Assembly: GCF_003063295.1 (NCBI RefSeq)
Contig: NZ_MUXF01000019.1
Coordinates: 305,919 to 369,918 of the forward strand
Direction: 5' to 3'
Length of the DNA stretch: 64,000 nt
Origin: Arcobacter lacus
Lineage (GTDB): Bacteria; Campylobacterota; Campylobacteria; Campylobacterales; Arcobacteraceae
Below are positions 53,931 to 64,000 of the stretch, in pieces (position 1 is the first letter of the stretch; each line of letters opens with the position of its first letter). The notes under the pieces were generated by a model, which saw only the letters and a program-made list of their open reading frames with translations, was not told where the DNA came from and made no database searches. Made by a program: the position numbers and the translations under genes.

Positions 53931-54944
53931 TCATTTTCCCAAAGTTTTACTAAAACTCAATCTTTTCACTCTATCTTTATAAGATGATCTATAAAACTCT
54001 TTTGCACTTTCACTTAAAAATGATTTATCAATCAACTCTTGAACTTTAGGATAACTTTCTTCTATAAACTTCATAATTTTATTGAATCTAACTTCTTTTA
54101 AATCAATGTAGTTAGCAAATATTTTAAAATCGTCATAAGTATAATATCCGTATTTTCGATAAGTAGGAGTATATTCATCTAACAGTTCTAATGCCATATC
54201 TCCATATTTTTCATTTATATGAAACCTGGTATTTAATAAATCATAATTTGGTGTTAAAAAATATTCACTAGAATCAGATTTACTATACAAGGAAAAGTTT
54301 TTTAAATGAGCATCACCATTACATATTAAATAGTTTAAAATAACTCTTTTAAAAAAATCTTCTATTGAAACTATGCTTGAAGCTACATATTTTTTTATCA
54401 TTCTTGCACAATCAAGATAACTACAAGCATCATATTTATAGTTTTCTCCATGAGAAGATGGTGTTATCCCCATAATTCCAGCAAAATCTTCTTGATCGTA
54501 TTTTAATCCTGAAATATCATCATAATCAAATCTTTTAGTAATATATGCAAGTTCTTTATCACTAAGCTGTATTAATCCACAATTTGCTGTTGGAATATTA
54601 AAAATATTTTTTGATATCAACATTGATAAATGTTCATTTGCAACAACATCTTTTTCATTTTGAATATGTCCATCACCACTAGAAATTGGTTTTAGGATAT
54701 ATTTCCCATTAATTGCAGTTGGAACTAAATCTTTTTTTTCAAAAGTCAAAGAGATTTTATCTTGAACTCCAGAGATTGACATTCTAGAAGATAATTCAGC
54801 TCTTTTTTTAGTAAATTCAACTCTATCAAAATTTAAAGGATTTGGCACTATCCCATTAAAAAGTTCTTTTATACATTTTGAACAATAATTATTTTTAAGT
54901 GTTTTATTTGTCGCTAAACAACCTAAACAAGTATTATTTTCCAT
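53931..54944 (-). CDS. hipT: HipT-type serine/threonine kinase toxin
   Basis: A 337-residue HipA-C kinase lacking the HipA N-terminal subdomain. The Gly-rich loop carries the SIS motif at residues 56-58 (RMSISGVQDK), matching the autophosphorylated serines of E. coli HipT. The catalytic loop is NGDAHLKNFSLY near 208, and the metal-binding Asp is in TPNYDLL. HipT phosphorylates tryptophanyl-tRNA synthetase in E. coli; the target here is unknown. The N-terminus has four Cys (6, 9, 21, 24) in two CxxC pairs, a probable zinc ribbon not found in E. coli HipT. Last gene of a hipB-hipS-hipT operon. Confidence 0.85.
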   Translation of the reverse strand: MENNTCLGCLATNKTLKNNYCSKCIKELFNGIVPNPLNFDRVEFTKKRAELSSRMSISGVQDKISLTFEKKDLVPTAINGKYILKPISSGDGHIQNEKDVVANEHLSMLISKNIFNIPTANCGLIQLSDKELAYITKRFDYDDISGLKYDQEDFAGIMGITPSSHGENYKYDACSYLDCARMIKKYVASSIVSIEDFFKRVILNYLICNGDAHLKNFSLYSKSDSSEYFLTPNYDLLNTRFHINEKYGDMALELLDEYTPTYRKYGYYTYDDFKIFANYIDLKEVRFNKIMKFIEESYPKVQELIDKSFLSESAKEFYRSSYKDRVKRLSFSKTLGK

Positions 54945-54946
54945 AT

Positions 54947-55273
54947 TTATATCTCATCTTTTTCTATAGTTATAGAGCCTATTGTATTCTCTTTTGTTGT
55001 TAGTATAAGTCTTGAAAAATCATCATCTTTATCTATTCTTAACTTTTTGCATTGTATATCTTTTAGTTTTCCTTCTGCTAGTAAGTTATAAAAAAAAGGA
55101 AATAAATAAGATGATTTAAACTCTTCTTCTTGTAATGGTAAAGTTAAACTAATAGGTTTTTTATTTGGTAGTTTCAAATACTCTTTATCATAAACAAAAA
55201 CGTACTCTTTTTCATTTAGTTTTGTAAGTAATCCTGCAAATATATTGTTTCTAAAAACTTTTGCTCTTTGCAT
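54947..55273 (-). CDS. hipS: HipS-type antitoxin (HipA N-terminal subdomain-like)
   Basis: A 108-residue protein equivalent to the N-terminal subdomain 1 of HipA: FRNNIFAGLLTKLNEKEYVF, PISLTLPLQEEEF, LFPFFYNLLAEGKLK and ENTIGSITI. In the HipBST system this separate small protein is the antitoxin that neutralises HipT. The ATG overlaps the hipB stop (TAATG), and hipT begins 2 bp after the stop, so the three genes are coupled. Confidence 0.83.
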   Translation of the reverse strand: MQRAKVFRNNIFAGLLTKLNEKEYVFVYDKEYLKLPNKKPISLTLPLQEEEFKSSYLFPFFYNLLAEGKLKDIQCKKLRIDKDDDFSRLILTTKENTIGSITIEKDEI

Positions 55274-55485
55274 TATTTAGTTACCACTTCAATATTTATT
55301 TGCATACCCAAAGCATCTAAAAGCTTCTCGAGTGTTTTTATAGTTGGATTTGCTTTTCCATTTTCAATATCTGAAATAGAAACATAACTTATACCTGAAT
55401 AATCTTGTAAATCTTTTAATTCCAACTTTAATTCTCGTCTTCTTTTTTTGATAATTTTTCCTATTTTAATATTAGTTAGTTCCAT
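55273..55485 (-). CDS. hipB: HipB-type XRE DNA-binding protein
   Basis: A 70-residue XRE-family protein (GKIIKKRRRELKLELKDLQ, YSGISYVSISDIENGKANP, LEKLLDALGMQINIEV), the DNA-binding member of the hip operon. The ATG at 55485 is chosen because AAGG lies 6-9 nt upstream; an upstream in-frame start at 55509 would overlap the proposed operator. It presumably represses its own promoter, where three copies of TATTTAGTATAT occur. Confidence 0.85.
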   Translation of the reverse strand: MELTNIKIGKIIKKRRRELKLELKDLQDYSGISYVSISDIENGKANPTIKTLEKLLDALGMQINIEVVTK

Positions 55486-56139
55486 TTTATACCTTAAATA
55501 AATACTCATATTTAGTATATAAGTTAAATACAGCTAATTATATATGTTTATAATTAAATATATCTTAATATTTAAAATATATACTAAATACTATATAGGA
55601 AATAGAGAATAAATAAATAAATACTTATTATTTAGTATATGACTTAAATACATACTAATGTATAATTTATTAATAATATAATTGCTTTAATAAATAATGG
55701 ATAGGTTTTTACGATATGCATTTTAAGACTGCAAATTGAAGTCCTATTTTATAGCTATCCAAGCTGTTTAAAACTAAAAAACTTACTTTTAAAAGTTTGA
55801 AATGCTGAATTTTAAATTAACTATTATTCATTCTTAAAACTATTTTTTTAATTAAATCTTTTAAATTCCTAAGTATATTTTAGAGTTGATAAATCAATTA
55901 CATAAGAAAAACCTCTTTGATATAATTTTCGTATAAAATCACAATCCGATAGTATTTATCGTATATCCTTTTTATGGTTTTTATGCCTTTTTTGTACTTT
56001 TTTTGATTTAATGCTAGGGTGTCAGAAAACAGAAGTTAAAAATAATTTTTCTAAGTATTTAAATTCAACAAATAATGTTTTTATAAAACTTATTTACAAA
56101 TATTTCAATGATTCTCTATACATTCTTATATATTCATCA
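55486..56139. promoter_or_regulatory. hipBST control region and AT-rich non-coding stretch
   Basis: Three copies of TATTTAGTATAT lie upstream of hipB: direct at 55509-55520 and 55629-55640 (exactly 120 bp apart, each continued by a TTAAATAC) and inverted at 55579-55590. They are good candidates for HipB operators and could support looping. The rest of the stretch (about 55660-56139) is AT-rich. I see no convincing gene or structured RNA in it. Confidence 0.55.
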
Positions 56140-56706: not shown

Positions 56707-57708
56707 TTACCACCATTTTGACATTTGTTTAAATTCCAAAATTGGTATTATTTCTCCCATTTTGGGATGAGTTATTTGAACTTCTTTTTTCTTAGCTTCA
56801 TCAACTACTTTATTTAATGGTTCATTCCATGAGTGAAGTGAAAGTTTGAAACTACTATTATGAATGGGAAAAAGTATTTTCCCTTTTAAATCCAAATGAG
56901 CTTGAACTGTTTCATCTGGCATCATATGAATTTCTTTCCATCTTTTGTTATAAGCTCCTGCTTCTAAAAATGTCATAGCAAAAGGTCCATATTTTTCACC
57001 AATTTTTTTAAAGGTATTAAAATATCCACTATCTCCACTAAAAAAAATATTTATTGTTGATGAAGTTATTACCCAAGAAGCCCATAAAGTTTTGTTTCTA
57101 TCAAATAGACTTCTTCCTGAAAAATGTTGAGCTGGAGTTGCTGAAATTTTTATAGAGTTTATTGTACATGATTGCCACCAATCAAGTTCACAAACTTTAA
57201 ATGTATCTAAACCTAAATCAAGAAGTTTTCGTTTTACTCCAATTGTTGTAAAAAAATGTCCAACTTTATCTTTTAATTTAATTATACTTGGTTCATCCAA
57301 ATGGTCATAGTGATTATGAGAAATAATTACTAAATCAATAAATGGCAAATCTTCAATTTCTATTGGTAATTCATGAAATCTTTTTGGTGCAACAAAAGGA
57401 AATGGAGTAATTTTTTGTGAAAAAACTGGATCAGTTAATATTAATTGATTATCTAATTTAAATAATAGTGTTGAATGAACTAACCTAACAACTGAATTGT
57501 TAGGCATATCTAAAATATCTTCTTTAGTTAATTTTATAATAGGAATAGTATCTTTAGAAGGTACTTTATTTTCAGTTTTATCTGAAAATAATGCCCAAAC
57601 ATTTGAAACAAAATCTGAAAAATTTGATTTATATTCAAGTTCTGAATTTCTAAATTTCCCATTTTTATAATGTTCTAATTTTATATCATTTTTTTTACAT
57701 TCATTCAT
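56707..57708 (-). CDS. metallo-beta-lactamase-fold hydrolase, NAPE-PLD/RomA-like
   Basis: A 333-residue cytoplasmic MBL-fold enzyme. Metal-binding motif SHNHYDHLD, further His in TPAQHFSGRS, Asp in FFSGDSGYF and His in FPIHNSSFKL. The segments LLTDPVFSQKITPFPF and ASWVITSS resemble the NAPE-PLD/RomA branch (YfhI/UlaG-like hydrolases). The substrate is unknown. It has its own upstream element (57759-57787) shared with two neighbouring transcription units, hinting at the same control as the dehydrogenase/efflux genes. Confidence 0.82.
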   Translation of the reverse strand: MNECKKNDIKLEHYKNGKFRNSELEYKSNFSDFVSNVWALFSDKTENKVPSKDTIPIIKLTKEDILDMPNNSVVRLVHSTLLFKLDNQLILTDPVFSQKITPFPFVAPKRFHELPIEIEDLPFIDLVIISHNHYDHLDEPSIIKLKDKVGHFFTTIGVKRKLLDLGLDTFKVCELDWWQSCTINSIKISATPAQHFSGRSLFDRNKTLWASWVITSSTINIFFSGDSGYFNTFKKIGEKYGPFAMTFLEAGAYNKRWKEIHMMPDETVQAHLDLKGKILFPIHNSSFKLSLHSWNEPLNKVVDEAKKKEVQITHPKMGEIIPILEFKQMSKWW

Positions 57709-57758
57709 TAAATTACCTATTATTTTTATTTATTATAAAATATTTTTTTGTTTCATTG

Positions 57759-57787
57759 ATAGAATAATTATCTAAAATGATTGCCTA
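57759..57787 (-). promoter_or_regulatory. shared 29-bp element, copy A
   Basis: Read on the plus strand as ATAGAA-N19-CCTA, 51 bp upstream of the MBL gene start. Identical ends and spacing occur at 61387-61415 and 62675-62703. Read leftward it is TAGG-N19-TTCTAT, so the ends are 17 bp apart if taken as a TAGGnn -35 and TTCTAT -10. It could be a promoter core or a regulator site. Confidence 0.55.
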
Positions 57788-57803
57788 TTTATATAAATAA
57801 AAT

Positions 57804-58994
57804 TTATTTTTTCAATGTATAAAATGCTGTAATAGTTGACATCATAGCAGCAATTGCTAATATAATTGCACTAAATACAAATGTAATTTCATATCCATAT
57901 GAATCAAATAATAATCCACCTAATGCAGCACCTAATGTTATAGCTAATTGAACTACTGCAACCATTAAACCTCCACCAGCTTCAGCATCATTTGGTAATG
58001 TTTTACTAAGCCAAGTCCACCATGCAACAGGAGCTGAAGTTGCTAGTAATCCCCATAATCCCATAAGAATAAATACAAAAACTATATTATGTCCAAATAC
58101 TATAAATCCTATTGCTAAAAACATCATTAAAAAAGGTATTACAATAAGTAAACTATATAATTTTGTTTTTAACAAGTGTCCAATAATAAATGTACCAATC
58201 AAACCTGTAACTCCAAGTGTTAATAATGCTAATGATAACATCTCAACATCTAAACCTGTCTCTCTTTCTAAAAATGGTCTTAGATAAGTAAAAAGTGAAA
58301 ACACACCCATAAAAAATAGCATAGTTGACACCATACCTAAAGTTACTTTCCAATTTTTAAAAAGATTAAATACACTACTAAGTTTTGGTCTATGACCATA
58401 TGTATGTCTTGATGGAAGTTCAGGTAATGTTTTATATTGCCAAAGAAATGCAACTATTGCAATTGGTACAATACAAAAAAATGCTCCTCTCCATCCAATA
58501 ATTCCACCTAAAAAACTTCCAAGAGGAGCTGCAACTGTTGTTGCTAAGGCATTTCCACCATTTATAATAGCAAGTGCTTTTGGAACAGAGTTTTTAGGCA
58601 CAAGTCTCATAGCAGTTGCTGCTGACATTCCCCAAAATCCACCAATACAAATACCTAAAAGAACACGCCCTAACATAAATATTGTAGTATTAGGAGCAAA
58701 TGCAACCATTAATCCTGATACACCCATAAAAAATGTGAAAAATAACATCACTTTTTTTCTATCAGTTTTTCCAATTATTGTAGTTAAAAATAGACTTGTT
58801 AAAAGTCCAAATAAACCTGACGCTGTTATTGATTGTCCTGCTTGCCCCTCTGTGATATTTAAATCACTTGCAATTGGAGTTAATAAACTAACTGGCATAA
58901 ATTCTGATGCAACTAATACAAAAGCACAAAGTGCCATTGCCCATATAGAACTCCATGAAGAAGTACTTAATTCATTATTATCGTTATTTTTCAT
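57804..58994 (-). CDS. MFS exporter, NepI-like
   Basis: A 396-residue major-facilitator protein with 12 helices. It begins SSIWAMALCAFVLVASEFMP and continues SLLTPIASDLNITEGQAGQS, GRVLLGICIGGFWGMSAATA and MRLVPKNSVPKALAI, closely resembling E. coli NepI, a purine ribonucleoside exporter of the DHA1 family. Substrate here is unproven; the setting with aldehyde/alcohol enzymes favours a toxic small molecule. It is the last gene of the leftward unit 61335-57804. Confidence 0.85.
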   Translation of the reverse strand: MKNNDNNELSTSSWSSIWAMALCAFVLVASEFMPVSLLTPIASDLNITEGQAGQSITASGLFGLLTSLFLTTIIGKTDRKKVMLFFTFFMGVSGLMVAFAPNTTIFMLGRVLLGICIGGFWGMSAATAMRLVPKNSVPKALAIINGGNALATTVAAPLGSFLGGIIGWRGAFFCIVPIAIVAFLWQYKTLPELPSRHTYGHRPKLSSVFNLFKNWKVTLGMVSTMLFFMGVFSLFTYLRPFLERETGLDVEMLSLALLTLGVTGLIGTFIIGHLLKTKLYSLLIVIPFLMMFLAIGFIVFGHNIVFVFILMGLWGLLATSAPVAWWTWLSKTLPNDAEAGGGLMVAVVQLAITLGAALGGLLFDSYGYEITFVFSAIILAIAAMMSTITAFYTLKK

Positions 58995-59029
58995 TTAAAG
59001 TTTTATTCCTTTTTTTAATTATCTATTTT

Positions 59030-59743
59030 TTAGATATGTATAGTTGTGATATTTTTATAAATATTTAATAATTTTTCTTGAAGTTCTTTATCTAAAGCTT
59101 TTGTAGAACAATCTATCTCTTTTAGATGGTGAAAATATTTTCCTGTAACTTTTAGGTTTTCATCACTTGTTAGCCAAAGTTGTGTACTAATTCTCTCTTC
59201 TAAACTATCAGGTGCATTATAATTTGCCATTTTAGTTTTCACCCAACCCGGATCTACTGTATTAACATACACATCACTCCAAAGTTTTGAGATACTAAAA
59301 CTTAACATTAAAATTAAAAGCTTTGAAGTTGAATAATCCACACCTAAATGTAATTTTTCCAAATCAATTTTTCCTTGTGGATGCATATTAGAACCAATGT
59401 ATATTAATTTTTTTGGTTTATTAATTAATGCTGTTAAAATATATGGTGCTAAAACATTAACTTTTAATATCTCTTCATTTGAAGCATCATATATCCCTGC
59501 ATTATGAATTATTACATCAAATCTACCTAAATCATTTACTTCATGTGCTAATTGTTTTAGCTCTTCAAATTTTGATAAATCTGCAACTAATATTTTTGTT
59601 TTCTTAGGAATTTTTGAGCTTAGTTCTTCTGCTCTTTTAAAAGTTTTGGCATGAAGAGTAACTTCATGCCCTAGGTTTATTAACTTTTGTGCTGTAAATA
59701 ATCCTAATCCATCACTAGAACCAGTTATAAACACTTTTAACAT
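59030..59743 (-). CDS. short-chain dehydrogenase/reductase
   Basis: A 237-residue SDR with cofactor motif VFITGSSDGLGLFTAQKL (TGxxxGLG), NNAG-equivalent VIIHNAGIYD, and active-site Tyr and Lys in VDYSTSKLLILML (Tyr-x3-Lys). The substrate Ser is in IYIGSNMHP. Basic residues after strand 2 (HAKTFKRAEEL) suggest NADPH. It starts 2 bp after the zinc alcohol dehydrogenase gene and before the NepI-like exporter, so all are one transcript. Confidence 0.9.
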   Translation of the reverse strand: MLKVFITGSSDGLGLFTAQKLINLGHEVTLHAKTFKRAEELSSKIPKKTKILVADLSKFEELKQLAHEVNDLGRFDVIIHNAGIYDASNEEILKVNVLAPYILTALINKPKKLIYIGSNMHPQGKIDLEKLHLGVDYSTSKLLILMLSFSISKLWSDVYVNTVDPGWVKTKMANYNAPDSLEERISTQLWLTSDENLKVTGKYFHHLKEIDCSTKALDKELQEKLLNIYKNITTIHI

Positions 59744-59745
59744 AA

Positions 59746-60906
59746 TTATATTGTTGCTGTATCAATAACATATCTATATCTAGCTTTTTTATCTACAACT
59801 TTTTTCCAAGCTTCAGTAATTTCACTAGCTTTGATTATTTCAATTTCAGGTAATACATTGTTAGCTACACAATAATCAACCATCTCTTGTGTCTCTTTCA
59901 TTCCACCAATTAAAGATGCATTGAAATTTACTCTGCTTGAAGCTAATCCAATATTACTTAATGTGATTTGAAAATCTACAGGCATACCAACCATAGTAAA
60001 AAATCCATAAGGTTTTACAACACTTGCATATGCTGCAACATCAAATTGGTATGGAATTGTACAAATCATATAATCTAATTGACCAGCATATGCGTAAAGA
60101 GCTTTTAACTCATCATCAACTACAATTACTTCTTTTACACCAAACCCTTTAATATCTTCTACTTTATCGGCACTTGTTGTAAATGCATAAACTTCAGCAC
60201 CTTTTGAAACTGCAATTTTAACAGCCATATGCCCTAATCCACCAATTCCAGCAACTCCAACTTTATCACCTTTTTTAATTTTAGCTTTCATTAATGGAGA
60301 ATAAGTTGTAATTCCTGCACATAATAATGGTGCAGCTTTTTCAAAACTTACATTTTCAGGAATATGCACAGCAAAATGGTCTCTTACAACTAAATGTGTT
60401 GAATAACCACCTTGAGTAATTCCTGTTGGTTCTTTACTTTCTGGATAACCATATGTGAATTTTGTTTCTGGATGATATTGTTCCTCTTCACAAGTTGTAC
60501 AACCATTTACCATACAACCAACTCCTGCTCTATCACCAACTTTAAATTTAGTTACATTTTTACCTACTTGTGTTACGATTCCAGCTATCTCATGACCTGG
60601 AACTTGTGGATATTGTTGTTTACCCCAATGACCTTTTTCTTGATGAATATCTGAGTGACAAATACTCGCTGCTTTAATCTCAATTAAAATATCATCATCA
60701 CCAACTGCTCTTCTTTCAAAAGTCCAAGGTTTTAACACTCCTGATTCATCAAATGCTGCATAACCTTTTGTTAAAACTGTTTTATTCATAATATATCCTT
60801 TATTTTCATTTGCTAAAATATCTGTAGGTTTAAAAAAGACTAAACCTGCACCAACGATTGCTGTATTTTTGATAAACTCTCTTCTTGTTAAATCTTGTTC
60901 ATTCAT
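59746..60906 (-). CDS. zinc alcohol dehydrogenase (YahK/CAD-like) with Tat-like leader
   Basis: A 386-residue MDR-family reductase. Catalytic zinc ligands are in ASICHSDIHQEKGHW and VPGHEIAG; the NADP-binding motif is VGVAGIGGLGHMAVKIA. The N-terminal 39 residues contain a twin-arginine motif (LTRREFIKN) and hydrophobic segment TAIVGAGLVFF, a Tat signal. An internal ATG at 60789 has AAAGGA upstream and would give the usual 347-residue cytoplasmic enzyme; the upstream ATG has GGAG. Two products are possible. The structural zinc lobe (GCMVNGCTTCEEEQYHPE) lacks the third and fourth family Cys. Second gene of the 61335-57804 unit. Confidence 0.9.
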   Translation of the reverse strand: MNEQDLTRREFIKNTAIVGAGLVFFKPTDILANENKGYIMNKTVLTKGYAAFDESGVLKPWTFERRAVGDDDILIEIKAASICHSDIHQEKGHWGKQQYPQVPGHEIAGIVTQVGKNVTKFKVGDRAGVGCMVNGCTTCEEEQYHPETKFTYGYPESKEPTGITQGGYSTHLVVRDHFAVHIPENVSFEKAAPLLCAGITTYSPLMKAKIKKGDKVGVAGIGGLGHMAVKIAVSKGAEVYAFTTSADKVEDIKGFGVKEVIVVDDELKALYAYAGQLDYMICTIPYQFDVAAYASVVKPYGFFTMVGMPVDFQITLSNIGLASSRVNFNASLIGGMKETQEMVDYCVANNVLPEIEIIKASEITEAWKKVVDKKARYRYVIDTATI

Positions 60907-60909
60907 AAT

Positions 60910-61335
60910 CTACTCCATTTTATCAATAGTAATTGTCCCTGACATATCTTCAATATATTCAGCACCCCATAAAACTTTCCCTAATTCATATAATCCACTA
61001 GCACTTCCAAAATCTTTGTAAAACATTACTACATCTCCCCAAGGTGCATAGTAAGCCAAAGTTCCAGCTTTAGCATTTTTTGCTAAAGAAGTATTACTTG
61101 TTGTCAATTTATTTGGTGGATAAAATATCTTTTCATCATTACTATAATTTTCAACTTTAATACTAAGAGGTAATTGAGCATATAACTCTTGTGATGCAGA
61201 TGAATTATTTAATTCATAAACAGTTGTATTACCATTAGAATTAACACTAATTTTCATTGTTTCTCCTTCTTTTGCATAAACTGATGTAATAAAAACAAAT
61301 AAAATAGAAATTAAAATATTTAATTTTTGTTTCAT
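60910..61335 (-). CDS. secreted cyclophilin-like fold protein
   Basis: A 141-residue protein with a signal peptide (LNILISILFVFITSVYA) and a beta-rich domain of the cyclophilin-like (DUF3830/Cyclophil_like2) kind: MKISVNSNGNTTVYEL, GTLAYYAPWGDVVMFYKDF and LYELGKVLWGAEYI. Bacterial members of this family lack shown isomerase activity and often neighbour oxidoreductases. It is the first gene of the leftward unit that continues with the zinc dehydrogenase, SDR and exporter, and it lies 52 bp from shared element B. Confidence 0.8.
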   Translation of the reverse strand: MKQKLNILISILFVFITSVYAKEGETMKISVNSNGNTTVYELNNSSASQELYAQLPLSIKVENYSNDEKIFYPPNKLTTSNTSLAKNAKAGTLAYYAPWGDVVMFYKDFGSASGLYELGKVLWGAEYIEDMSGTITIDKME

Positions 61336-61386
61336 AACATTCTCCTTTATATATGATTTTATTATAGATTATTTTCTAATTTACGA

Positions 61387-61415
61387 ATAGAAAAATACTC
61401 TAATTAAATTGCCTA
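61387..61415 (-). promoter_or_regulatory. shared 29-bp element, copy B
   Basis: ATAGAA-N19-CCTA (plus-strand reading), 52 bp upstream of the cyclophilin-like gene. It shares TTGCCTA and following AATTCT/ATAAATAA with copies A and C in part. See copy A for the promoter reading. Confidence 0.55.
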
Positions 61416-61428
61416 ATTCTATAAATAA

Positions 61429-62619
61429 CTAAATTTCTACTTTTAAATGTTTTGAATTTCGTGCAAATAAAAGTGTAAAAAAACATGCTAATAAAGCTAA
61501 AAAACCATAAAACAAAGATACATGATATAAATCCATATAATGAGAGAGTTGACCAGCTATAAAACTAGGAATTGCAGCTCCTGTATAAGATACTGCATAT
61601 ATCAAAGATAACACTCCTGCTCTTTCTTTCAATTTTATATCTGCAAGTAGTGAACGAATACTTCCCGTTAAAACTGCTCCTTGAGATGCCCCTGCAATTA
61701 CACTACAAATAATAAAAATTGTAATATTTGAAAATTTCAAAGAAGAGATAATTCCAAATACAGCTAAAGTAAATACAATCATTCCTAATCGTTGAATATT
61801 AGCTGGAGTAAATTTTGCAGTTAATGGACCTCCAATTGCACTTGGCAATAAATATGATGAAAATAAAATTCCTATCATCAAGGTACTATGTGTTCCTAAT
61901 TTATCAACTGCAATTGAAGGACCAAAAGCTTGATAAAATGCTCCCATTGCCCAAGTTGAAACAAATGTAATTGCAGCAATTGGAAATAATCTTTTATCTA
62001 CATGGGGTAAAGAAAATTTAGGTTTAAAAGAAGCAATTACACCTGAACTTTTTTCAACAGTTTCTTTACTTAATATTATTAATAAAGTACAAACACATAA
62101 AATAATAAGAATTACAACATAGCACAATACTCTAGGATATGGAGCAAATTCAACTAAAGAACCTGAAACAATTGCACCAATAGTAAGTCCAACCATTGGA
62201 GAATTACTTATAACAGCTGAGGGAACCCAATGGGCTAAACTTGCTCCACTATCAGCAATATATGATGTAAGGGCACTTGAAGCCAATCCACAAGCAAATC
62301 CTAAAATCAATCGTCCAATGATTAAAGGTGTTGCACTATTTACATCTAACAAAATTACAGTTGCAATAAAAGTAAGTAAAAATATTAATAAAGCAACAGG
62401 TTTTCGTCCCAAATGATTTGAAATTCGCCCAAACATTAAAAGAGCTGTAATTGCTCCAACAAAATAAACAACAGCAGTAAGTGCCAAATCATAATATGTT
62501 AAACCATCAGATTGCCTATAAATATCATATAAAGGTATTGGAGTAGCAGAAGCTGCAAAAACCATCAAAAATGAAAATGTTGATGCAAAAAAAACTAGCA
62601 TCGTATTATCTTTTTTCAA
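61429..62619 (-). CDS. MFS transporter
   Basis: A 396-residue major-facilitator protein with 12 predicted helices (LVFFASTFSFLMVFAASATP, GRISNHLGRKPVALLIF, IIGRLILGFACGLASSALT). The loop 2-3 motif GRISNHLGRKP is typical of DHA1 drug/metabolite exporters. The start is taken as TTG 62619 because AAGGA lies 6-10 nt upstream; an earlier TTG at 62637 has none. Substrate unknown. Probably co-regulated with the dehydrogenase unit through element C 56 bp upstream. Confidence 0.85.
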   Translation of the reverse strand: MKKDNTMLVFFASTFSFLMVFAASATPIPLYDIYRQSDGLTYYDLALTAVVYFVGAITALLMFGRISNHLGRKPVALLIFLLTFIATVILLDVNSATPLIIGRLILGFACGLASSALTSYIADSGASLAHWVPSAVISNSPMVGLTIGAIVSGSLVEFAPYPRVLCYVVILIILCVCTLLIILSKETVEKSSGVIASFKPKFSLPHVDKRLFPIAAITFVSTWAMGAFYQAFGPSIAVDKLGTHSTLMIGILFSSYLLPSAIGGPLTAKFTPANIQRLGMIVFTLAVFGIISSLKFSNITIFIICSVIAGASQGAVLTGSIRSLLADIKLKERAGVLSLIYAVSYTGAAIPSFIAGQLSHYMDLYHVSLFYGFLALLACFFTLLFARNSKHLKVEI

Positions 62620-62674
62620 TTTCTTTTCCTTATTCAAATATATTTACTATTATAAATTAGTTTAAAATATTAGA

Positions 62675-62703
62675 ATAGAAAGATAGTCCAGATGAATAAC
62701 CTA
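62675..62703 (-). promoter_or_regulatory. shared 29-bp element, copy C
   Basis: ATAGAA-N19-CCTA (plus-strand reading), 56 bp upstream of the MFS start. It lies in the 206-bp divergent region that also serves the YqhD-like gene, so one regulator might act on both. Confidence 0.55.
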
Positions 62704-62726
62704 ATTCTCTAAATTCATAATTTTTC

Positions 62727-62763
62727 ATTTGTAGAATTTGGTATGTGATTTGTAGAATTTGGT
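62727..62763. repeat. two direct repeats ATTTGTAGAATTTGGT, 21-bp period
   Basis: Identical 16-bp copies at 62727-62742 and 62748-62763 are spaced by two helical turns, 63 bp upstream of the YqhD-like start. The arrangement fits tandem binding of an AraC- or LysR-type activator at the rightward promoter. Confidence 0.6.
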
Positions 62764-62825
62764 CTTTAAATCTTTTAGTATAACTTTTATAATTCCCTTA
62801 CAAAATTATTTGAAGGATTTAAAAT

Positions 62826-63965
62826 ATGGAATTTTCTTATCATAACCCAACGGGAATAGAATTTGGAAAAGGAAAAATTAAAGAAATAGCTAATCTTATT
62901 CCAAAAGATAAAAAAGTATTAGTAGTTTATGGTGGTGGTTCAATTAAGAAAAATGGTGCATATGAGCAAGTTGTAAAAGCTTTAGAAAATCACAAATGGG
63001 TAGAATTTGGTGGAGTTGAAGTAAATCCAACAGTAGAAACTATGAACAAAGCTGTTGAACTTGTAAAAGCTGAAGGTGTAGAATTTATTTTAGCTGTTGG
63101 TGGTGGTTCTGTTATTGATGGTTCAAAATATCTTGCTGCTGCATCATTATATGATGGTGATGGATGGGATTTCTTAGATGGAACTGCAATAGTTGAAAAA
63201 GCTCTTCCAATTGGAGTTATATTAACTTTAGCTGCAACGGGTTCAGAATCAAACAATTTAACTGTTGTTTCAAGAAAAACTACAGATGAAAAAAGAATGT
63301 ATTTTTCAGATCATTCATACCCAAGATTTGCAGTACTTGATCCATCATTTATGGGAACATTAAGTGATAGACAACTTGGAAATGGTTTAGTTGATGCTTT
63401 TGTTCATATTTCTGAGCAATATTTAACTAAAACAAATGATTTATTAGTAAATGATGGTTATGCAGAAACTTTATATAAAGGTTTAGTAACTCTTGCAGAT
63501 AAATGGGAAGAGAGAAGATCATTATGGTGGCAAGAAAATTTAATGCACATTTGTAATCAAGCACTTAACTTCCAACTTGCAAATGGTGTTTGCCAAGATT
63601 GGTCAACACACATTATTGGACACGAATTAACAGCATTCTATGGACTTGATCATGCTAGATCATTAGCAGTTGTTCTTCCACATTTATTAAGAGAAATGAT
63701 AGATGAAAAACAAGAAAAACTAGCACAATTTGGTAAAAATGTATTCGGAATCGAAAATGATAACGAAGCAGTAATTCAAAAAATGGAAAATATATTTGAA
63801 AGTGTTGGTTTACCAACAAAATTAACTGAATATGAAATTGACAATAAAGTTATTGAAAATGTTCATAATGCATTTAAATCTCATGGTTATTTAGAAATTG
63901 GTGAAAATGGAACAGTTACTTTAGATAAAGTAGCTAACATTTTAAATAGATCAATGGTAGCTTAA
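62826..63965 (+). CDS. yqhD: YqhD-type iron-containing alcohol dehydrogenase
   Basis: A 379-residue group III dehydrogenase close to E. coli YqhD, an NADPH-dependent aldehyde reductase that removes short toxic aldehydes. It opens FSYHNPTGIEFGKGKI, has the nucleotide site VVYGGGSIKKNGAYEQV and AVGGGSVIDGSKYLA, and metal ligands in GLVDAFVHISEQY (Asp, His), IGHELTAFYGLDHARS (two His). In E. coli, yqhD is activated by an AraC protein next to it; none is visible here, although the window ends 35 bp after the gene. Confidence 0.92.
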   Translation: MEFSYHNPTGIEFGKGKIKEIANLIPKDKKVLVVYGGGSIKKNGAYEQVVKALENHKWVEFGGVEVNPTVETMNKAVELVKAEGVEFILAVGGGSVIDGSKYLAAASLYDGDGWDFLDGTAIVEKALPIGVILTLAATGSESNNLTVVSRKTTDEKRMYFSDHSYPRFAVLDPSFMGTLSDRQLGNGLVDAFVHISEQYLTKTNDLLVNDGYAETLYKGLVTLADKWEERRSLWWQENLMHICNQALNFQLANGVCQDWSTHIIGHELTAFYGLDHARSLAVVLPHLLREMIDEKQEKLAQFGKNVFGIENDNEAVIQKMENIFESVGLPTKLTEYEIDNKVIENVHNAFKSHGYLEIGENGTVTLDKVANILNRSMVA

Positions 63966-64000
63966 TAGTATTTGTTCTCCTGAATACTTATAAAGAGGCT

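Follow-up and report, generated by a model that had tools for sequence, protein, structure and literature searches.

A putative AraC_N-type activator operator ahead of reductase, hydrolase and exporter genes in Arcobacter lacus

Near the right end of a 64,000-nucleotide stretch of the 2.2-Mb genome of Arcobacter lacus (hereafter the window; C19:305919-369918), the pattern ATAGAA-N19-CCTA stands ahead of three transcription units, always on the same strand, and the question it raises is whether it is part of a promoter or the binding site of a regulator and, if the latter, of which one. Our analysis, which compared the locus with genomes whose nearest members in the collections are Arcobacter/Aliarcobacter-type Campylobacterota, indicates that the element is very probably an activator site for AraC-family regulators that carry an AraC_N domain, the kind represented by E. 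coli YqhC, and that it would work by class II activation in response to an inducer that we infer from the E. coli case. The locus is, in this sense, a new regulon of a known kind, governed by a textbook sort of bacterial switch that would jointly turn on at least eight groups of genes for detoxification and export.

Anatomy of the element

The three exact copies reported by the first-pass annotation (57759-57787, 61387-61415 and 62675-62703) were confirmed on a single strand, against 0.14 expected in dinucleotide shuffles, where the largest count was 2 and none of 100 shuffles held three or more. Their coding-strand sequences are TAGGCAATCATTTTAGATAATTATTCTAT, TAGGCAATTTAATTAGAGTATTTTTCTAT and TAGGTTATTCATCTGGACTATCTTTCTAT. 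The rest of the genome has one additional exact match, at C4:80282, which lacks the remaining motif and looks like a chance occurrence. With one mismatch allowed, the bare pattern was found 6 times against 6.8 expected, which is chance level, so that the signal resides in a fuller motif; with three mismatches, 40 matches against 35 in a reversed control amounted to noise, and we therefore used in its place R1, a 44-nt sequence-only model of the element, run over 41 genomes.

The 29-bp string is in fact the visible part of an operator of about 38 bp with two half-sites exactly 21 bp apart, TTTgTAGAATTAGGCA and TTTtRGAGAATTnTTCTA in short form. In a logo of 33 sites, drawn from the source genome and eleven Campylobacterota loci, the half-sites read TTT(G/A)(T/G)AGAATTAGGCA and TTTT(A/G)GAGAATTnTTCTA, and conservation extends from about -9 to +29 relative to TAGG; the string first described is thus real, but its boundary was incomplete by about 10 bp on the upstream side. 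Self-comparison gave a half-site identity of 0.55 at offset 21 versus 0.19-0.36 at the remaining offsets between 10 and 33, and the arrangement is a direct repeat of units of about 16 bp, set two helical turns apart. TATAAT or TATACT lies 20-21 nt downstream of TTCTAT at all eight strong sites of this genome (described below) and also in relatives, so that the operator ends 20-21 nt ahead of a good -10 box, in place of a -35 box. The -35 hexamers at the sites are poor, and a generic sigma-70 scan of the region returned 31 matches versus 32.5 in shuffles, with no excess. The element takes up the -35 region together with the DNA just upstream, which bears out the earlier suggestion of a regulator site overlapping the promoter. 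The features of the three units are as follows.

56707..57708, minus strand: MBL-fold (metallo-beta-lactamase; Lactamase_B_2) hydrolase, 333 aa, target unit 1
57732..57737, minus strand: -10 hexamer TATAAT, 21 nt past operator 1
57759..57797, minus strand: operator 1, ahead of the MBL-fold hydrolase gene, R1 36.8 bits
57804..61335, minus strand: target operon 2
57804-58994, minus strand: predicted exporter of the major facilitator superfamily (MFS), operon 2
59030-59743, minus strand: short-chain dehydrogenase/reductase (SDR), operon 2
59746-60906, minus strand: twin-arginine-like zinc-containing alcohol dehydrogenase (Zn-ADH), close to aldehyde reductase Ahr, operon 2
60910-61335, minus strand: Cyclophil_like2 protein, operon 2
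61361..61366, minus strand: -10 hexamer TATAAT, 20 nt past operator 2
61387..61425, minus strand: operator 2, ahead of the cyclophilin-like/Zn-ADH/SDR/MFS operon, R1 39.2 bits
61429..62637, minus strand: MFS transporter, 402 aa, target unit 3
62649..62654, minus strand: -10 hexamer TATAAT, 20 nt past operator 3
62675..62713, minus strand: operator 3, ahead of the second MFS gene, R1 31.5 bits

The nearest match of the Zn-ADH is the NADPH-dependent aldehyde reductase Ahr, with a score under the cut-off of the Ahr model. The element stands 50 nt from the ATG at 57708 (MBL gene) and 51 nt from the ATG at 61335 (operon 2), and either 37 nt from a TTG at 62637 or about 55 nt from a TTG at 62619 in the MFS gene; the latter, which follows AAGGAAAAG, is the better placed of the two. 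The distance of 51-56 bp first proposed therefore holds if the MFS gene starts at 62619.

AraC-type activators bind at such a promoter position, and in the araI1-araI2 arrangement of AraC, which exemplifies class II activation, two direct half-sites 21 bp apart replace the -35 region. The element fits a site of this class, at which we predict binding: its half-sites are direct and about 21 bp apart, it abuts or overlaps the -35 region, and the -10 box follows at fixed spacing. The likeness to araI1/araI2, also described as direct repeats (PMC7499043), is one of layout, whereas the sequence, the sensor domain and the targets are unrelated to arabinose.

Regulators, target units and co-occurrence

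Because of this promoter position we searched for AraC_N (PF06719), the YqhC-type sensor domain. The genome has three such genes (C19:370254, C19:376524 and C8:41383), whose products, AraC1, AraC2 and AraC3, all combine PF06719 with HTH_18 at scores well above the Pfam cut-offs. Two of them lie just past the right edge of the window, less than 8 kb from its end, and belong to the cluster that holds the sites; araC3, on contig C8, has an operator ahead of the next gene. AraC1, AraC2 and AraC3 are 29-57% identical to one another (AraC2 and AraC3, 57%) and pairwise 33%, 28% and 28% identical to E. coli YqhC, AraC1 being the closest paralogue.

A genome-wide search with the three-copy consensus placed the five best matches (0-1 mismatch) within C19:363677-377160, with two weaker ones between or beside them and one on contig C8. 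R1, in turn, found exactly eight sites of at least 27.9 bits in the source genome, of which seven fall within a single 14-kb cluster and the eighth lies beside araC3; the next site, at 19.3 bits, is the repeat ahead of the iron-containing alcohol dehydrogenase gene (Fe-ADH), and another reaches 18.2. The strong sites precede these units:

Target 1: MBL hydrolase gene
Target 2: cyclophilin-like/Zn-ADH/SDR/MFS operon
Target 3: second MFS gene
Target 4: Gfo/Idh gene, then araC1
Target 5: araC2
Target 6: DUF3737-aminotransferase
Target 7: cupin-cupin-carboxymuconolactone decarboxylase (CMD)
Target 8: Zn-ADH/Fe-ADH on C8, adjoining araC3

With the exception of DUF3737, site and start codon are 37-61 nt apart. 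The first-pass annotation had proposed one regulon of three units, to be checked by a genome-wide search: the bare pattern added only the copy on C4, but the fuller model supports a single regulon enlarged to eight (perhaps nine) predicted units, with a regulator family assigned to it and the regulators outside the window.

The ninth, divergent candidate lies at the right end of the window, into which the first AraC_N gene reaches:

62728..62763, plus strand: candidate operator 9, ahead of Fe-ADH, with two copies of TTTGTAGAATTTGGT exactly 21 bp apart, R1 19.3 bits (E 0.003)
62788..62793, plus strand: -10 hexamer TATAAT of the Fe-ADH promoter, spaced from the repeat as in the strong sites
62826..63965, plus strand: Fe-ADH, 46.5% identical to E. 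coli YqhD
63988..64000, minus strand: 3' end of araC1 (AraC_N + HTH_18, 288 aa; full gene C19:369906-370772, past the window edge)
about 66047-66075, extended window coordinates: operator of the Gfo/Idh gene
about 70237-71154, extended window coordinates: araC2
about 71214-71242, extended window coordinates: araC2 operator
further right of the window, same cluster: DUF3737 and cupin operators

This YqhD-like Fe-ADH, whose best NCBIfam match is PRK15138 (388.7 bits, under the cut-off of 645), adjoins the araC1 gene, and the pair stands alone in the closest relative, G013 (95% and 94% identical). The repeat ahead of it has the form TTTGTAGAATTTGGT-N6-TTTGTAGAATTTGGT. We also observed that window positions 62726-62763 hold an exact half-site duplication at 21-bp spacing where G013 has one copy; it is possible that the second half-site is a recent gain. 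Orthologous AraC1 loci, checked for an operator distinct to AraC1, showed the one TTTGTAGAATTTGGT in G013 and TTTGTAGAAATTGACA-like repeats in G009.

Co-occurrence is, in our view, the best evidence for the AraC_N proteins as the probable cognate regulators. AraC_N genes are present in 11 of the 41 related genomes, and R1 sites of at least 24 bits occur in 10 of these 11 and in 0 of the 30 others (Fisher p 1e-8), many of which carry other AraC-family genes. The genome-wide best R1 sites of Campylobacter showae and Malaciobacter halophilus are at their AraC_N genes, and relatives with a single AraC_N gene have the same consensus ahead of similar genes. The repeat is nearly perfect in G033 (TTTGCAGAATTAGGCAAGAAATTTGCAGAATCGTTCTAT). 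This genome (L127-L131) has one AraC_N gene and five scattered sites on three contigs, several of them near-perfect TTTGCAGAAT repeats, and its sites are predicted to form a dispersed regulon. The same operator also stands ahead of a C8-type Fe-ADH (61-69% identical) in several relatives, namely at L033/L137 (G003), L140 (G013) and L030-L032, which suggests that araC plus Fe-ADH may be the minimal ancestral unit.

The E. coli yqhD promoter and other phyla

YqhC binds the yqhD promoter region and activates yqhD under glyoxal or furfural (PMC5297802, PMC8249747). The gap between yqhC and yqhD, kept out of R1 training, contains TCTGGAGAAATAGGCA-N5-TTGGCAGAAATGAGCA with the same spacing (full string TCTGGAGAAATAGGCAAGACATTGGCAGAAATGAGCATT, at the corresponding place) and scores 17.4, whereas across 100 kb of other E. 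coli DNA no position scores as high as 0. By the description of the promoter in PMC6115493, the repeat would extend from roughly -68 to -30 relative to the yqhD start. The two systems are thus alike in having an AraC_N + HTH_18 regulator beside a YqhD-type Fe-ADH and a direct repeat of 21-bp spacing in which TAGGCA occupies the same place ahead of the -10 box. They differ, however, in that YqhC has a single target by genomic SELEX (PMC8249747), whereas A. lacus has three AraC_N paralogues and no fewer than eight predicted target units, among them exporters, cupins, an MBL hydrolase and Zn-ADHs, and in that the best TAGGCA sites go with AraC2/AraC3-type neighbours and not with the YqhC-like AraC1.

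Beyond the phylum, 10 of 15 AraC_N loci examined in Bacilli, Cyanobacteria and other Proteobacteria have the top site no more than 250 bp from araC (binomial p about 1e-13, for loci that are not fully independent). These sites lie on the strand leading away from araC, and in most cases a -10-like hexamer stands at the same offset. When nine whole genomes from outside Campylobacterota were searched, the sole R1 match in Leptolyngbya and the top match in a Rhizobiales genome adjoined AraC_N genes absent from training; in the remaining seven the top match was not beside an AraC_N gene. A phylum-spanning operator is, on these grounds, likely but not settled. We hold it somewhat more probable than not that the AraC_N family reads one layout, in which a TGSAGRAWTAGGCAAG-type half-site is followed at 21 bp by a degenerate copy, 20-21 nt ahead of the -10 box, in Campylobacterota, Bacilli, Cyanobacteria and Alpha-, Beta- and Gammaproteobacteria. 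A literature search for TAGGCA or TAGGCAAG together with AraC gave no operator description among the matches listed, of which the one examined was a primer; in the open literature, a scope that leaves the primary YqhC papers outside, YqhC binding is placed at the yqhD promoter without a two-half-site operator. The cross-phylum operator may be the new part, although a YqhC half-site could have been published earlier.

Alternative explanations and proposed mechanism

Several observations weigh against an AraC_N activator site. At DUF3737, 105 nt separate the site from the start codon. One AraC_N genome, G006, tops at 21.3 bits, and one genome without AraC_N reaches 21.7. Some of the R1 training loci had been located by way of AraC2 homologues, which makes the araC-adjacent sites in them partly circular, a circularity from which the control genomes without AraC_N and the remote G033 sites are free. 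The Fe-ADH promoter of G013 has a single TTTGTAGAATTTGGT in a region otherwise 91.6% identical, and the Fe-ADH site is therefore a candidate and not an established member. Outside Campylobacterota, lastly, R1 ranks poorly genome-wide, and the cross-phylum claim rests on position for this reason.

The ends of the element are about 17 bp apart and its distance to the start codon is fixed, as would be expected if TAGGnn and TTCTAT were the -35 and -10 boxes of an alternative or housekeeping sigma factor. This possibility, raised in the first-pass annotation, we rejected on account of the separate TATAAT/TATACT boxes downstream of every copy. A promoter core is also at odds with the restriction to eight strong sites in the genome, with their absence from all 30 relatives without AraC_N, and with the 21-bp direct repeat, which is not a promoter feature; we consider it extremely unlikely. 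That the site belongs to another regulator travelling with the AraC_N genes, such as another AraC-family protein or the MarR-family protein encoded in the same cluster (C19:373514-373957), has in its favor that such clusters are probably gained and lost as a block. MarR sites, however, are usually palindromes, and the sites recur beside AraC_N genes in several further groups and also in E. coli, where the promoter in question is under YqhC control. This makes the explanation very unlikely. Overlap with the -35 region would also suit a repressor site, at which a bound AraC_N protein would hold back RNA polymerase until released by an inducer; this seems highly improbable, given the poor -35 hexamers, a position known to be activating for AraC-type class II activators, and the fact that YqhC is an activator (PMC5297802).

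A more serious alternative, to which we give a substantial though less than even chance, is that there is no single regulon, AraC1, AraC2 and AraC3 instead recognizing separate subsets of similar-looking sites and responding to different compounds. The divergence of the three paralogues agrees with it, and so do differences among the sites: TNGGANTATCTTTCTAT is common to the MFS and Gfo sites, the Fe-ADH repeat has TTTGGT where others have TAGGCA, and the C8 site starts with TTTAGCAC, as does the araC3-like locus of G015. Against it, one model fits all eight sites well, and relatives with only one AraC_N gene use the same consensus ahead of similar genes.

Under the activator-site reading that we prefer, an AraC_N protein would sense an aldehyde or other reactive electrophile, as inferred from E. 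coli YqhC (PMC5297802, PMC6115493), occupy both half-sites and contact RNA polymerase at the weak -35 region, so that reductases, hydrolases, cupins and exporters would be switched on together. The sites ahead of araC1 (with Gfo) and araC2 would add positive feedback on the regulator genes. The sites may be used in common by the three paralogues or split among them. Electrophile and hypochlorite regulons such as those of RclR and NemR hold similar stress-type enzymes and transporters. RclR, however, matches the regulators described here weakly, through the common helix-turn-helix, NemR is a TetR-family protein, and neither family adjoins the sites.

Two further observations concern neighboring genes. 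At C19:372817-373272 (L025:11318-11773), a 151-aa protein starting with MAELHNVAGIKEGTKGSELL has no Pfam match and by eye resembles part of a thioredoxin-reductase-like flavoprotein; it is possibly a gene remnant. On the minus strand of the window, at 53931-55509, the gene of a small helix-turn-helix protein of 78 aa, HipB-like by eye, adjoins two others, one for a separate HipA N-terminal domain protein (Couple_hipA, 108 aa) and one for a kinase-like HipA_C protein of 337 aa; the trio resembles a tripartite toxin-antitoxin module of the HipBST type.

What began as a pattern seen by eye has thus led to a putative family of regulators, a model of the operator and eight to nine predicted target units, and a half-site architecture can be proposed for the E. 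coli yqhD promoter. For the cyclophilin-like protein, the MBL hydrolase, DUF3737, the cupins and CMD, all of them vaguely annotated, the association suggests a function in an aldehyde or electrophile response of an Arcobacter-type bacterium. If the AraC_N family does read one layout, the targets of the many uncharacterised AraC_N regulators might be predictable from DNA alone.

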